This document shows positions 2,422 through 27,806 of a DNA stretch of 35,204 nt, one piece after another. Numbering within the stretch: the first letter of the stretch is position 1; every line of letters begins with the position of its first letter. The position numbers and the translations under genes are program-made. The DNA comes from a gamma proteobacterium HTCC2207 (GTDB lineage: Bacteria > Pseudomonadota > Gammaproteobacteria > Pseudomonadales > Porticoccaceae), in contig CAJJAU010000086.1 in assembly GCA_905182275.1 (NCBI GenBank), positions 1-35,204 on the forward strand. The letters run 5' to 3'. The notes beneath the pieces are model-generated. The model was not told where the DNA came from and made no database searches. It was given only the letters and a program-made list of their open reading frames with translations.

Positions 2422-3936
2422 TTAGCTACCTAGAAAAAAACGATAAGCTTGGTTGTCGGTTTCATCTTCGCACCGATAACCCAGTTCATCTAAAAATCGC
2501 TTAACCTCTAAGCCTTCCTTATGTGACGCTTGAAACCCGACTAAGACTTTGCCAAATGCTGAACCATGATTCCGATAATGGAACATCGATATATTTAAGT
2601 CATCGCCCAGTTCAGTTAAAAAGTTGAGTAATGCGCTAGGACGCTCAGGGAATTCAAATCGAAAAACCTGCTCTTCGCCAACCTGAGGTGAACGCCCCCC
2701 CACCATGTGCCGAATATGTGATTTGGCAAGTTCGCTGTCGGTCATATCCGAGACAGGATAACCGTCCTCACTTAACTCGCTCACTAGTTCGAAACGATCG
2801 TCATCAGAGGTCACTTTGACACCAACAAAAATCTGAGCTTGATCTGAGCTGCTAAAACGATAGTTAAATTCTGAGATAGTCCGCTTGCCCAATGCTTTGC
2901 AGAAATGCTTGAAACTACCGGGTTTTTCATCAAGCGTAACCGCCAGAATCGCCTCACGCTTCTCACCCACTTCGGTGCGCTCTGAGATATAGCGCAGTCG
3001 ATCAAAATCAATATTGGCTCCACACTGAATCGCCAGTAAGGTTTGACCCACAACCCCGTGGTGTTCAACATATTTTTTAAGTCCGGCTGCTCCCATGGCT
3101 CCAGAAGGCTCACAGATCGCTCGCGTATCGTTATATACATCTTTAATCGCCGCGCAGATCTCATCTGTGCTGACCGTAATAACTTCGTCGACTAAGTCTT
3201 TGAGAATTCGAAAGGTTTCTGTGCCTATTTGGCCAACCGCCGTGCCATCAGCAAAAATACCGACCTCTTTGAGCTTTACCGGTTGCCCCGCTTTCATAGC
3301 CGCATCAAGACAGGCCGCATCATCAGATTCAACGGCAATAATTTTAACTCCAGGGCGCACATACTTTACATAGGCAGCGACACCGGCACACAGCCCCCCG
3401 CCGCCCACGGCAATGAAAATTGCATCTAGATCACCCGGCAGCTGACGCAATATCTCCATACCCACAGTACCCTGACCGGCAATAATATCGGGATCATCAA
3501 ACGGATGAATGTAGGTAAGTCCCTGCTCTTCCAATAGCTGATTCGCATGGCCAGCAGCAGTATCATAATTATCCCCAAACAAAACTACATTAGCGCCCCA
3601 ACCACGGACCGCATCGACCTTAATACGCGGAGTTGTCTTGGGCATTACAATGGTCGCTTTGACGCCCATTTTTTGCGCAGCCAACGCCAAACCCTGAGCA
3701 TGATTACCCGCTGAGGCCGCAATGACTCCCGCCGCTAATTGCTCCTTCGACAGATGCCGTAGTTTGTTGTAAGCACCGCGTAACTTAAATGAAAAGACTG
3801 GCTGCAGGTCTTCTCGCTTAAGCAACACCTGATTTTTCAGGCGTTGAGATAATAGCGGCGCTTTATCAACCGGTGTCTCCAGAGCCAAATCGTAGATGCG
3901 AGCATCAAGAATTTTTTTTACGTACGTCTGTGGCAT
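2422..3936 (-). CDS. ilvA: Threonine ammonia-lyase, biosynthetic
   Basis: Deaminates L-threonine to 2-oxobutanoate, the committed step of isoleucine synthesis; PLP-dependent. The 504-residue length fits the biosynthetic form. The PLP lysine is K51 in PVFSFKLRGAYNKL. ASAGNHAQG and a GGGG phosphate-binding loop (AVGGGGLCAG) are present. The C-terminal third (about 330-504) has two ACT-like regulatory domains, which in this family bind isoleucine (inhibitor) and valine (activator), so this is not the short catabolic TdcB type. It is divergent from rpiA, a common pairing in gammaproteobacteria. It converges on pyk with 32 bp between stops and no clear intrinsic terminator. Confidence 0.96.
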   Translation of the reverse strand: MPQTYVKKILDARIYDLALETPVDKAPLLSQRLKNQVLLKREDLQPVFSFKLRGAYNKLRHLSKEQLAAGVIAASAGNHAQGLALAAQKMGVKATIVMPKTTPRIKVDAVRGWGANVVLFGDNYDTAAGHANQLLEEQGLTYIHPFDDPDIIAGQGTVGMEILRQLPGDLDAIFIAVGGGGLCAGVAAYVKYVRPGVKIIAVESDDAACLDAAMKAGQPVKLKEVGIFADGTAVGQIGTETFRILKDLVDEVITVSTDEICAAIKDVYNDTRAICEPSGAMGAAGLKKYVEHHGVVGQTLLAIQCGANIDFDRLRYISERTEVGEKREAILAVTLDEKPGSFKHFCKALGKRTISEFNYRFSSSDQAQIFVGVKVTSDDDRFELVSELSEDGYPVSDMTDSELAKSHIRHMVGGRSPQVGEEQVFRFEFPERPSALLNFLTELGDDLNISMFHYRNHGSAFGKVLVGFQASHKEGLEVKRFLDELGYRCEDETDNQAYRFFLGS

Positions 3937-25962: not shown

Positions 25963-26916
25963 CTAACTTACTTCACCATCATGCCGTTCCATCACACCAA
26001 AAATTCTGTCAACTATCCATTGATGTATCGGCGATCCTGACGTTCGTTGGTGCTGTAATAAGACCAACTTAATACTTTCTTCGTGAGGTAACTCCTCCGG
26101 AAAAGGCTTGCTGACAATACGATGTTCTTCACGTTCCATGACCCTACTCTTCTGGGTGGCAACCATCAGGCAATCCGTATCGCAGACGGTTTCCATGGCC
26201 GTTAGTAATTGGTTTGTTACCAAGGCTTTTTCGCGCTTTAAACCCAATTCAGCCAGTGTTCGGTCAAAACGCGCATTGTTTCTGGCACTAACGCGCTTGG
26301 AGATAAGCAGGTAATACTGGACGAAGGGATACTTTAGAATGTCTTCTAGGGTCGTCTTTTCCTTATTTGCTAACGGATGTCCGTGCCTCATCCAAATTGA
26401 AGGCGCATAGTTAGTGAGAGTTCTTGTGGTAATGTCATCGGTAATTCCTCTATCGATATCAATCGCAAAATCTAATGCACCAACCGCCAAATCACCCTCC
26501 ACAGATTCGATGCCGCTTGATACTGAGAGGACCAATCCTGGCGCATCATTAGTGACAACTTTAGTTAATTCAGAGACTAGCGTTATAGCAACGAATTCAG
26601 GTACAGCGATTGAAATTTCTCCTACATAGGTAGCAGGATCAAATGTACCCTGACTCACCATATCCAGAATACTATCCAACAATTGGGGCAAGCGAAGCTG
26701 CATCTCTCTTGCCTTCGGAGTTGGCACTAATTCATTACCTGTTCGAGTGAACAAGGGATCATCGAGCTGATCACGGAGCCTCTGAAGTACTCGGCTCATT
26801 GCCGGCTGACTAATAAACAGTCGAGCCGCAGCGCGAGTGACACTTTTTTCTTCCAAAAGCGCCTGCAAAGAAACCAGTAAATTCAAATCCAGGCGATTCA
26901 GTTTCTGTAAGTTCAT
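25963..26916 (-). CDS. LysR-family transcriptional regulator
   Basis: A 317-residue protein with an N-terminal winged helix-turn-helix (about 8-67; VTRAAARLFISQPAMSRVLQRLRDQL) and a C-terminal periplasmic-binding-protein-like effector domain. The DLNLLVSLQALLEEKSVTRAA and DPLFTRTGNELVPTPKA segments are typical of the NodD/LeuO-like group. A GGAGG at proper spacing supports the ATG. No metabolic gene is divergent from it; instead three tandem small transcription units lie upstream, each with a LysR-sized dyad, and the nearest dyad ends 31 bases before this start. The effector is unknown. Confidence 0.93.
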   Translation of the reverse strand: MNLQKLNRLDLNLLVSLQALLEEKSVTRAAARLFISQPAMSRVLQRLRDQLDDPLFTRTGNELVPTPKAREMQLRLPQLLDSILDMVSQGTFDPATYVGEISIAVPEFVAITLVSELTKVVTNDAPGLVLSVSSGIESVEGDLAVGALDFAIDIDRGITDDITTRTLTNYAPSIWMRHGHPLANKEKTTLEDILKYPFVQYYLLISKRVSARNNARFDRTLAELGLKREKALVTNQLLTAMETVCDTDCLMVATQKSRVMEREEHRIVSKPFPEELPHEESIKLVLLQHQRTSGSPIHQWIVDRIFGVMERHDGEVS

Positions 26917-26946
26917 TCAACCCCTCCAACGTGGTATAACCAAAAC

Positions 26947-26973
26947 GCATAATATCAATGCATACAATGCATT
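26947..26973. promoter_or_regulatory. LysR-type operator candidate, copy A
   Basis: GCAT-N7-ATGCAT-N3-ATGCATT. The first 15 bases are a perfect interrupted dyad (GCAT-N7-ATGC), the size of LysR-type boxes. The second, overlapping dyad (AATGCAT-N3-ATGCATT, perfect here and extended by one C/G pair) runs into the -35 hexamer. Spacing is identical in all three copies. This copy also lies just upstream of the divergent lysR gene, so it could serve autoregulation. Confidence 0.6.
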
Positions 26974-27001
26974 GGAATTATGCCACTTCAAAGCTTATAT
27001 T
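26972..27001 (+). promoter_or_regulatory. Promoter of small RNA A
   Basis: -35 TTGGAA (26972-26977), 18-bp spacer, -10 TATATT (26996-27001); start expected near 27008. The same geometry recurs in copies B and C. Confidence 0.55.
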
Positions 27002-27007
27002 AGTATC

Positions 27008-27139
27008 TAAGTTGTTAAGCAATGATTTAAAAAAGTAATAAAAAGCTTACCGGCACACAGAATTCGCCCTGCGATCCAAACCCCTCTTAATCCTGCATAG
27101 GATTTTTTTAAGGGACCTCACATGAGGTCCCTTTTTTTT
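27008..27139 (+). ncRNA. Candidate small RNA A
   Basis: A transcript of about 100 nt (to the first terminator) or 132 nt (to the second) with no useful reading frame. The 5' part is AU-rich and unrelated in sequence to copy B, but could still form a stem (GTTAAGC with GCTTAC). From 27052 on it is nearly identical to copy B: a short TCGC-YCT-GCGA stem, an apparently unpaired ATCCAAACCCCTCTTA stretch, then two terminator hairpins. The CCCCTC segment is complementary to purine-rich ribosome-binding sites, so a trans-acting antisense role is plausible. The 5' end is estimated from the promoter. Confidence 0.55.
27089..27139 (+). terminator. Double intrinsic terminator of copy A
   Basis: Hairpin 1 is AATCCT-GCAT-AGGATT (27089-27104), running into seven T (27103-27109). 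Hairpin 2 is AAGGGACCTC-ACAT-GAGGTCCCTT (27110-27133), with eight T at 27132-27139. The second is much the stronger. Confidence 0.85.
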
Positions 27140-27180
27140 AACTTTCAAAAAGGCTCTAGAAAACTCGGTATACCAATTTT

Positions 27181-27207
27181 GCATATATAAAATGCATAGA
27201 AGGCATT
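27181..27207. promoter_or_regulatory. LysR-type operator candidate, copy B
   Basis: GCAT-N7-ATGCAT-N3-AGGCATT. The 15-bp GCAT-N7-ATGC dyad is perfect. The second dyad has one changed base relative to copy A. Spacing to the promoter is as in the other copies. Confidence 0.6.
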
Positions 27208-27235
27208 GGATTTATGCCGCCTCAAAACTTACATT
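27206..27235 (+). promoter_or_regulatory. Promoter of small RNA B
   Basis: -35 TTGGAT (27206-27211), 18-bp spacer, -10 TACATT (27230-27235); start expected near 27242. Confidence 0.5.
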
Positions 27236-27241
27236 AGCGTC

Positions 27242-27378
27242 TCTGCCGAACAGTAAAGGTTTTAGCGAGAATATCGCTGTTATCTACGCGGCAAACAGAA
27301 TTCGCTCTGCGATCCAAACCCCTCTTAATCCTGCATAGGATTTTTTTCAAGGGACCTTATCTGAGGTCCCTTTTTTTT
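27242..27378 (+). ncRNA. Candidate small RNA B
   Basis: Sibling of RNA A, about 106 or 137 nt depending on the terminator used. Its unique 5' part can form AGCGA-GAATA-TCGCT (27264-27278), extendable by outer AACAG/CTGTT pairing, so a 5' stem-loop is kept although the sequence differs from copy A. The 3' half is the conserved block with the CCCCTCTTA stretch. No reading frame of note is present. Confidence 0.55.
27327..27378 (+). terminator. Double intrinsic terminator of copy B
   Basis: Hairpin 1 is AATCCT-GCAT-AGGATT (27327-27342) with T to 27347. Hairpin 2 is AAGGGACCT-TATCTG-AGGTCCCTT (27349-27372) with eight T at 27371-27378. The loop differs from copy A while the stem is kept. Confidence 0.85.
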
Positions 27379-27418
27379 ATCTTCCAAAAAATATCTGTAA
27401 TTTTGGCATACCAATTTT

Positions 27419-27445
27419 GCATAGATAAGATGCGTTAAATGCATT
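27419..27445. promoter_or_regulatory. LysR-type operator candidate, copy C
   Basis: GCAT-N7-ATGCGT-N3-ATGCATT. The GCAT-N7-ATGC dyad is perfect; the second dyad carries one change. Same spacing as copies A and B. Confidence 0.6.
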
Positions 27446-27473
27446 AGATTTATGACCTTGGCGGGAATATAGT
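27444..27473 (+). promoter_or_regulatory. Promoter of copy C
   Basis: -35 TTAGAT (27444-27449), 18-bp spacer, -10 TATAGT (27468-27473); start expected near 27480, leaving a leader of about 38 nt before the small reading frame. Confidence 0.5.
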
Positions 27474-27517
27474 GCACGCATTGGAGCAATAAGGCTCTAA
27501 AAAATAAGGATTTTACT

Positions 27518-27631
27518 ATGACACTCGTCTATTTATTGCTCGGTTTCGCCGGCATCACGGGTGCTGCAATTGCGAAAGATGATTTCGCAAAATTTGAAGC
27601 GCCTAACAAAGAGGCTTCTAAGGAACACTAA
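27518..27631 (+). CDS. 37-residue small membrane-like protein of copy C
   Basis: A reading frame too short for most gene callers, starting MTLVYLLLGFAGITGAAIAK and ending KEASKEH. AAGGA at 27506-27510 is a proper Shine-Dalgarno, 7 bases before the ATG. Residues 3-19 form one hydrophobic, glycine/alanine-rich helix; the remaining 18 are charged (KDDFAKFEAPNKEASKEH). It could be a single-span membrane peptide or a secreted peptide cut after AIA. It sits between the copy C promoter and terminator, so it is very likely transcribed alone. I recognise no family. Confidence 0.6.
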   Translation: MTLVYLLLGFAGITGAAIAKDDFAKFEAPNKEASKEH

Positions 27632-27722
27632 CGTCATTCTGCTTGTGGCTCTCAAATTGATAGTCATTAAGCTCTGAAAATAGTTCTAACTAACTCCTCT
27701 TAGTCCTCTTAAAGGATTGTTC

Positions 27723-27749
27723 AAAGGGACCCTATAGGGTCCCTTTTTT
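27723..27749 (+). terminator. Intrinsic terminator of copy C
   Basis: AAAGGGACCC-TATA-GGGTCCCTTT (27723-27746), with T continuing to 27749. A weaker AGTCCT/AGGATT hairpin precedes it at 27702-27718, matching hairpin 1 of copies A and B with one G-U pair. Confidence 0.88.
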
Positions 27750-27806
27750 GTATTCCGCATCCCCTCTTTGCTTAATCTCGGCCATAGATCTATACTTTAA
27801 AGAATA

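Follow-up and report, generated by a model that had tools for sequence, protein, structure and literature searches.

What do three tandem units behind a divergent LysR-type regulator gene make, and does the regulator control them? The question is raised by a locus in the 2.0 Mb genome of a SAR92-clade (Porticoccaceae) bacterium. We analysed the locus within the window, which is the whole stretch of 35,204 nucleotides. An earlier note on this DNA had read it as a LysR-controlled, multi-copy locus for small RNAs and a small protein.

The locus and its regulator

The LysR gene is on the minus strand, three divergent tandem units follow (26933–27751), and crp and trpC come next.

25963–26916, minus strand: LysR-type regulator of 317 aa with Pfam HTH_1 and LysR_substrate matches, divergent from the units

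The best NCBIfam models for the protein were BsrA, LelA, YidZ, CitR and LeuO, all far under their cut-offs, and the closest solved chains were 2esn, 1uth and 2uyf/2uye. The regulator has two cysteines, of which Cys249 is kept in 39 of 39 homologues compared and Cys245 in 30 of 39. This conservation is compatible with redox sensing, which it would permit without demonstrating it.

Operator and promoters

A 50-nt repeat family with three copies, starting at 26933, 27167 and 27405, confirmed the tandem arrangement behind LysR. Each copy contains an operator that is larger than had been described; the repetition stood, but the element comprises four half-sites, GCAT-N7-ATGC-N7-GCAT-N7-ATG.

26947–26982, plus strand: operator A, four half-sites, from a pattern search (consensus over 88 copies)
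27181–27216, plus strand: operator B, from a pattern search; nearer operator C than operator A
27419–27454, plus strand: operator C, from a pattern search
26972–27001, plus strand: promoter A (TTGGAA, 18 bp, TATATT; predicted start near 27008), from a promoter scan

All 15 fixed operator bases are kept in each of the three copies. The spacing, which the earlier note had held to be beyond chance, indeed was: with at most one mismatch there were six operator matches in the window (three sites, both strands) against 0.03 expected, and none of 100 shuffles of the window attained six. A search of the entire 2.0 Mb genome that allowed three mismatches found the sole perfect copies, and the only sites with 0 or 1 mismatch, at units A, B and C; the next-best sites had two mismatches and were scattered. 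Operator A is 30 bp from the LysR start codon, and the first unit's operator is thus within the upstream region of the LysR gene itself.

The 18-bp promoter spacer holds in all three units, with the −35 elements at 26972, 27206 and 27444 and the −10 elements at 26996, 27230 and 27468. Transcription is predicted to start near 27008, 27242 and 27480 in units A, B and C, respectively. A generic promoter scan called only the promoter of A among the units, and its total (3, against a mean of 2.6 in shuffles) was background; the promoter claim therefore rests on conservation. Three terminators were found in the window against 0.7 in shuffles.

The OxyR operator has four half-sites with 7-bp spacers, and the unit operators have the same arrangement. 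The likeness is one of geometry alone, and OxyR was not among the best NCBIfam models or the solved-chain matches of the LysR protein. The recognition-helix stretch of LysR reads QPAMSR(V/I)L in the compared lineages with GCAT half-sites (g1, g2, g8 and g14) and QPAMSKTL or QSAMSKTL in the remaining lineages compared. This co-variation is consistent with LysR reading the operator, and a single ancestral change could also explain it. From position and co-occurrence, we infer that LysR binds these sites.

Units A, B and C

27008–27139, plus strand: predicted non-coding RNA A, about 132 nt (fold z −3.46; 78 bits with covariance model R1, which includes sequence A)
27080–27089, plus strand: C-rich seed ACCCCUCUUA of RNA A, single-stranded in the predicted fold (coordinates by eye)
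27089–27104, plus strand: hairpin AATCCT-GCAT-AGGATT of RNA A, from the predicted fold; precedes terminator A
27110–27139, plus strand: terminator A, from the predicted fold and terminator scan
27242–27378, plus strand: predicted non-coding RNA B, about 137 nt (fold z −3.80; 75 bits with R1, which includes sequence B)
27318–27327, plus strand: seed of RNA B
27349–27372, plus strand: terminator B
27480–27751, plus strand: predicted transcript C, about 270 nt, with a 5′ hairpin, an ORF, a decayed module and a terminator (fold z −4.91; 52 bits with R1, which does not include C)
27518–27631, plus strand: 37-aa peptide MTLVYLLLGFAGITGAAIAKDDFAKFEAPNKEASKEH with one probable membrane helix (by eye) and a charged tail
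27690–27716, plus strand: decayed C-rich module of C
27723–27746, plus strand: terminator C

Units A and B were non-coding, as had been supposed; neither has a plus-strand ORF of at least 20 aa past its predicted start. The 37-aa peptide encoded by unit C (27518–27631) was likewise borne out. The claim of a shared 3′ module held for the three terminators and for A and B, whose 64-nt modules are 94% identical, but the C-rich motif of C has decayed (CTCCTCTTAGTCC), and module C is decaying in close relatives. The three units are not equal paralogues. Overall, A and B are 75% identical across 216 aligned positions. The operator region of B is 84% identical to that of C and 72% to that of A (50 nt). 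The operator of B is thus nearer that of C, and its 3′ module is like that of A. B therefore combines a body of the A kind with an operator of the C kind, which suggests an unequal exchange between A and C.

The RNA module

The constant part of the units is the RNA end, which consists of the unpaired ACCCCUCUUA, a hairpin (hairpin 1), a U-run and the terminator. In 52 type-1 modules, the CCC is invariant, the neighbouring letters are at least 90% conserved, and hairpin 1 is almost invariant. Predicted folds of A, B and two RNAs of genus g2 (fold z of the latter two, −5.2 and −5.1) all leave the C-rich stretch single-stranded.

Across types and genera, hairpin 1 takes differing forms that are still complementary (AATCCT/AGGATT, TCTTTG/CAAAGA, TTCTTG/CAAGGA and TATCCT/AGGATA), in a comparison that also gave spurious stems. 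The compensated changes come only from this comparison between types; within type 1, the hairpin-1 pairs show no variation. Two-sided changes were found in three of the nine pairs of the covariation check, all three in the terminator, and the consensus fold computed from the type-2 alignment (−0.67 kcal mol−1) lacked the two hairpins. The pairing of the g2 5′ hairpin is kept with altered letters in three genomes (GCAAAGG/CCUUUGC; GCAAAGA/UCUUUGC, by eye; and one unrelated stem).

The Hfq gene is present in 18 of 19 genomes searched, including this one. With this gene and long U-tails, the RNA anatomy is of the Hfq-dependent sRNA type, and the RNAs would be expected to bind Hfq. No Rfam family was above threshold at the locus or at the loci of six relatives. 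The sole Rfam family above threshold in the window is 6S RNA, at 213–388.

AAGAGGGG followed by ATG has eight matches in the genome against one for the reversed control, an excess that ordinary ribosome sites would give likewise. The pattern matched in 48 of 48 same-genus genomes, and we rejected it for calling targets since such an excess is expected from ordinary ribosome-binding sites. A riboswitch or attenuator reading of A and B was also rejected, because neither contains a gene ahead of its terminator.

The peptide

The unit-C peptide is under purifying selection. Among 37 same-genus peptide ORFs, chosen by start pattern (which missed three further ORFs) and compared in pairs that are not independent, differences at codon positions 1, 2 and 3 numbered 3257, 773 and 6713. 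Pooled dN/dS was 0.154, and pN/pS in the other two frames was 1.09 and 3.3. Four of the peptides were compared with Pfam and NCBIfam, and none scored above a curated cut-off, DUF1127 and the other known small-protein families included.

Codons 15–20 of the ORF (GGT GCT GCA ATT GCG AAA; palindrome GCAATTGC) are nearly fixed at synonymous sites, in 32–35 of 37 ORFs per codon. Many of the remaining codons, by comparison, vary synonymously. There may be a constraint at the RNA level inside the ORF at these codons.

Conservation in the genus

Of 50 same-genus genomes, 48 contain LysR, and the remaining two have a completeness of 71 and 73%. We read the divergent region at all 48 LysR loci, some of them in part. 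The operator stands ahead of the first unit at every one, with none of 15 positions mismatched in 37 loci, one in 10 and two in a single locus. The type-1 RNA module, ACCCCTCTTAATCC or a close variant followed by the hairpin and terminator, is also present at all 48, a count that includes two loci initially sorted by script as type 2. The arrangement itself is real and conserved.

The composition of the locus varies. At 26 of 48 loci, a unit with peptide and module is followed by a non-coding type-2 unit. The non-coding unit comes before the peptide unit at a further 11, of which the peptide unit's module is recognisable in six and not in five. An ORF and an intact type-1 module thus share one predicted unit at 26 + 6 of the 48 loci, from which the window's own unit C is excluded, its module being decayed. 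The script detected a peptide at 40 of the 48 loci and found none at six intact loci, where the RNA module is retained. Locus L063 is cut by a contig end; at L016 the units are further apart, apparently through an insertion, and the last unit is beyond the analysed stretch.

The earlier note had expected the three-copy structure and its operator spacing in close relatives. The operator is there at 48 of 48 loci, but the A-B-C triplet is found at one, this genome's own, and two units are usual. The broader claim of a LysR-controlled multi-copy locus gained from LysR (48/50), module and operator (48/48) and selection on the ORF; it has to be amended in that the triplet is private and the units are unequal.

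The family and beyond

Within the family, 103 of 112 genomes have a LysR orthologue, and all 14 genera are represented among them. When covariance model R1 was run against related genomes, a check that had been proposed for A, B and C, it found the RNA in 67 of the 112, a figure that includes three rejected matches in g10. By genus, matches were obtained in 48 of 50 genomes of the bacterium's own genus, 3 of 3 of g2, 2 of 2 of g8 and 11 of 14 of g14, besides the three weak ones in g10. The last three follow other genes, neither an operator nor a C-run was seen there, and they were discarded. In g2 the RNA is at three of three LysR loci, where the peptide was not seen.

Genus g14 is mixed and partly speaks against a fixed linkage of LysR and unit. 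Six genomes (G098, G101, G102, G105, G106 and G110; loci L289–L294) have no unit between LysR and trpC, and on this point the claim of LysR control is weakened. Their LysR orthologues are 65–67% identical to that of the window. Five of the six have their R1 matches on other contigs; G102, the sixth, has no match. The g14 genomes with R1 matches have one to three each, several on contigs other than that of LysR. These counter-cases leave our confidence unchanged because the units keep their anatomy away from LysR. Some g14 units (among L126, L127, L129, L130 and L132–L137) carry a second peptide type, MEIVYGAMIFSCVLLAAIATQDFMSS.

In genera g3–g13, the letters of the plan have drifted. We read 17 LysR-proximal regions there, and like peptide ORFs were present in seven (g3, g4, g7, g9, g12 twice and g13) and not seen in ten. 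The sequence before the terminator has a run of at least four C in 13 of 17, CTCCCTC in 3 of 17 and AACCCACC in 1 of 17, and 10 of the 17 regions fit a loose operator pattern. The plan, with drifted letters, thus recurs next to LysR in further genera of the family.

A second model, R2, was built from 13 modules of genera g3–g13. It proved too general, with matches in 68 of 390 order genomes, many to the terminator alone, and was set aside. Among eight full-length R2 matches read, the LysR layout was present only at L247 (family f25). The window's LysR was matched at four of the 30 loci L233–L262, three of them in the family. LysR homologues (E ≤1e-45) occur in 45 of the 390 order genomes, of which 18 are family members. 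Twelve loci outside the family were read: four have a divergent, similar short peptide ORF and then a C- or CU-rich end (f4, f25), three have an operator-like start together with either a terminator or some other short ORF, and in five nothing similar was seen. Homology of the plan beyond the family, in a few other families, is probable from these readings.

With a profile built from 22 peptides, matches were obtained in 17 of the 390 order genomes, 14 of which are family members (of 18 sampled). Of the other three, one is a probable misplaced contig and two are chance-like. The two weak peptide matches, in G209 and G313, are inside open frames of 1099 and 419 aa, respectively, and were rejected. 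The match of both R1 and the peptide in G469 (L140), outside the family, was rejected as well; by eye its unit is nearly that of G107 (g14), and the other 24 genomes of its family have no match. The contig was probably misplaced by a binning error.

Comparison with known systems

The earlier note knew of no described system with this layout. The general plan does have relatives in SgrR–SgrS/SgrT, VcdRP and VtlR–AbcR, but the combination differs. Divergent pairs of a LysR regulator and an sRNA are known in GcvA/GcvB and OxyR/OxyS. SgrR is not a LysR protein, and the regulator here is of LysR type by Pfam and so not of the SgrR family.

In SgrS/SgrT, an ORF of about 40 aa is 5′, the pairing region is downstream, an extra stem-loop precedes the terminator, and some species lack the peptide, according to the available text (PMC4021124). 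The locus studied here shares with it the regulator adjoining the predicted sRNA gene, the order of peptide ORF, putative pairing region, stem-loop and terminator, and the lack of the peptide in some lineages. The seed differs, and the same text describes no tandem array of RNA-only and peptide units (PMC4021124). SgrS was not among the Rfam matches (gathering threshold or E ≤5), assuming that it is present in the Rfam set. VcdRP comprises a 29-aa protein and a distal pairing segment whose seed of four consecutive cytosines pairs at translation initiation sites, as excerpts of its description state (PMC8672173). A small protein and a C-run seed, predicted here for one RNA in most relatives, are the likeness; VcdRP is repressed by CRP and has no LysR neighbour driving it.

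VtlR is a LysR regulator that directly activates sRNAs and a small protein (PMC7486931, in part), and the AbcR motifs are CUCCCA and GUUCCC (PMC5461406, in part). VtlR/LsrB–AbcR1/2 is alike in the LysR control of sRNAs plus a small protein that is proposed here. It differs in that the VtlR sites of A. tumefaciens, of another class, are at three separate genes (abcR1, atu1667 and vrsA), and dual transcripts are not described in the accessible portion of that paper (PMC7486931). AbcR was also not among the Rfam matches (gathering threshold or E ≤5), assuming its presence in the library. LhrC1–5 of Listeria is an sRNA present in several copies, whose CU-rich pairing sites are redundant and which a single regulator controls, as judged from the abstract (PMC4132741). 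It resembles the present locus in its copy number and in the control by one regulator that is proposed here, but the regulator is the two-component system LisRK, the host is Gram-positive, and the abstract mentions no peptide (PMC4132741).

The suhB/mmgR family (RF00519) resembles the module in the shape of its hairpin and subsequent terminator, and weakly matches A and B. It was rejected at 20.1 and 19.9 bits against a gathering threshold of 41, with the CUCCC stretch of the family in an alignment gap. STnc100 (RF02076) was rejected at 28 bits (E 0.0005, whole model) and 23.4 bits (E 0.0036) against 47; the 23.4-bit alignment covers the terminator end alone (model 161–206). In the available part of the open-licence literature on SAR92, HTCC2207, Porticoccaceae sRNAs, and LysR with tandem sRNAs or small proteins, no description of the locus was found, and among the matches listed for HTCC2207, small RNA and metatranscriptome, none names HTCC2207. 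What differs is the combination of one LysR and tandem units sharing an operator, in which some lineages join RNA and peptide and others split them. We place the system, as a probable variant, with regulators that control a dual-function sRNA and assign it to no named family.

Proposed mechanism and alternatives

It is very probable that the units give rise to small regulatory RNAs and to a tiny membrane protein. We consider it likely that Hfq-type sRNAs, with a C-rich seed similar to an anti-Shine–Dalgarno sequence, and an inner-membrane micropeptide are expressed under a LysR activator dedicated to them, in a manner resembling SgrR–SgrS/SgrT, VcdRP and VtlR–AbcR. The activator would respond to a small molecule, bind the four-half-site operator ahead of each unit and switch on a set of short transcripts. 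Each transcript would end in the shared module, in which a C-rich seed (ACCCCU...) lies exposed ahead of a small hairpin, with a U-run and a strong terminator after it. The sRNA would most likely repress mRNAs by pairing of the seed with G-rich Shine–Dalgarno regions. In most relatives, one unit is predicted to encode a conserved membrane micropeptide of 34–40 aa upstream of the module, giving a dual-function RNA whose micropeptide may have a target in the membrane as part of that response. The two jobs appear to be separated in this genome: A and B would be RNA alone, with B a recombinant duplicate, and C would be chiefly a peptide mRNA whose module is decaying.

Three other explanations were weighed. 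The peptide could be the sole product, made from short LysR-run mRNAs, with the 3′ module serving as a double terminator and A and B as decayed copies without an ORF. The C-type units do carry a selected ORF, the module does end in a strong terminator, and hairpin 1 with its U7 could terminate by itself. We nevertheless find this unlikely: throughout the genus, units without an ORF have retained their C-rich letters as well as operator and promoter, several lineages have the RNA with no peptide seen at the LysR locus, and a terminator does not need the near-invariant unpaired ACCCCUCUUA. That retention of the C-rich seed where no peptide is seen also tells against a system like a type I toxin–antitoxin, or a membrane-stress peptide, in which C-rich RNAs restrain the mRNA of a toxic hydrophobic peptide. 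A short hydrophobic peptide beside small RNAs, in many copies and dispersed in some relatives, would suit such a system, but RNA and peptide here share a strand, an operator and often one predicted transcript, and we regard the idea as improbable. Least probable is that the tandem operators are DNA decoys that titrate LysR and that the transcripts are functionless. The operators are the sharpest repeated feature and the genome has no further strong sites, as decoys would have it; selection on both the peptide and the RNA module, and a matching promoter and terminator at every operator, argue against it. LysR-driven sRNAs with a micropeptide remain our preferred reading.

The locus may also stand for an order-wide class of LysR-driven cassettes, of which we found no published account, whose expandable tandem units are the main regulon, with a G-L-x-G-(S/A)-A-I-A-x-D-D micropeptide and an anti-Shine–Dalgarno RNA that are joined, split, lost, multiplied or moved; to us the chances for and against this wider proposal are even. 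If it is true, the splitting of a dual-function RNA into two genes would be observable within one clade. Dual-function RNAs and relays from LysR to sRNA are known from a few model bacteria, and both seem to be combined here in one compact marine locus. The RNA and peptide are below the thresholds of Rfam, Pfam and NCBIfam, and a regulator with a conserved small regulon therefore escapes routine annotation. The natural variants (RNA only, separate units and joint unit) make gain and loss of the coding function testable.

Dispersed copies

A lone degenerate copy of unit A without the operator is on another contig of the closest relative (G042, L118; contig C49, about 3160–3305). It was rejected as an RNA copy; the similar stretch begins at about 27014 and extends beyond the terminator, as in a DNA duplicate, and no operator was found. 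The single-contig genome G095 has ten peptide copies: a tandem group of four adjoins LysR, and the other six are dispersed. The sequence upstream of the dispersed copies differs from that of the LysR-proximal units, and four of the six have an ACCCCC end. Among these six copies (L194 and L196–L200), several have nearly identical flanks by eye, as if a mobile or recombining element had spread them.
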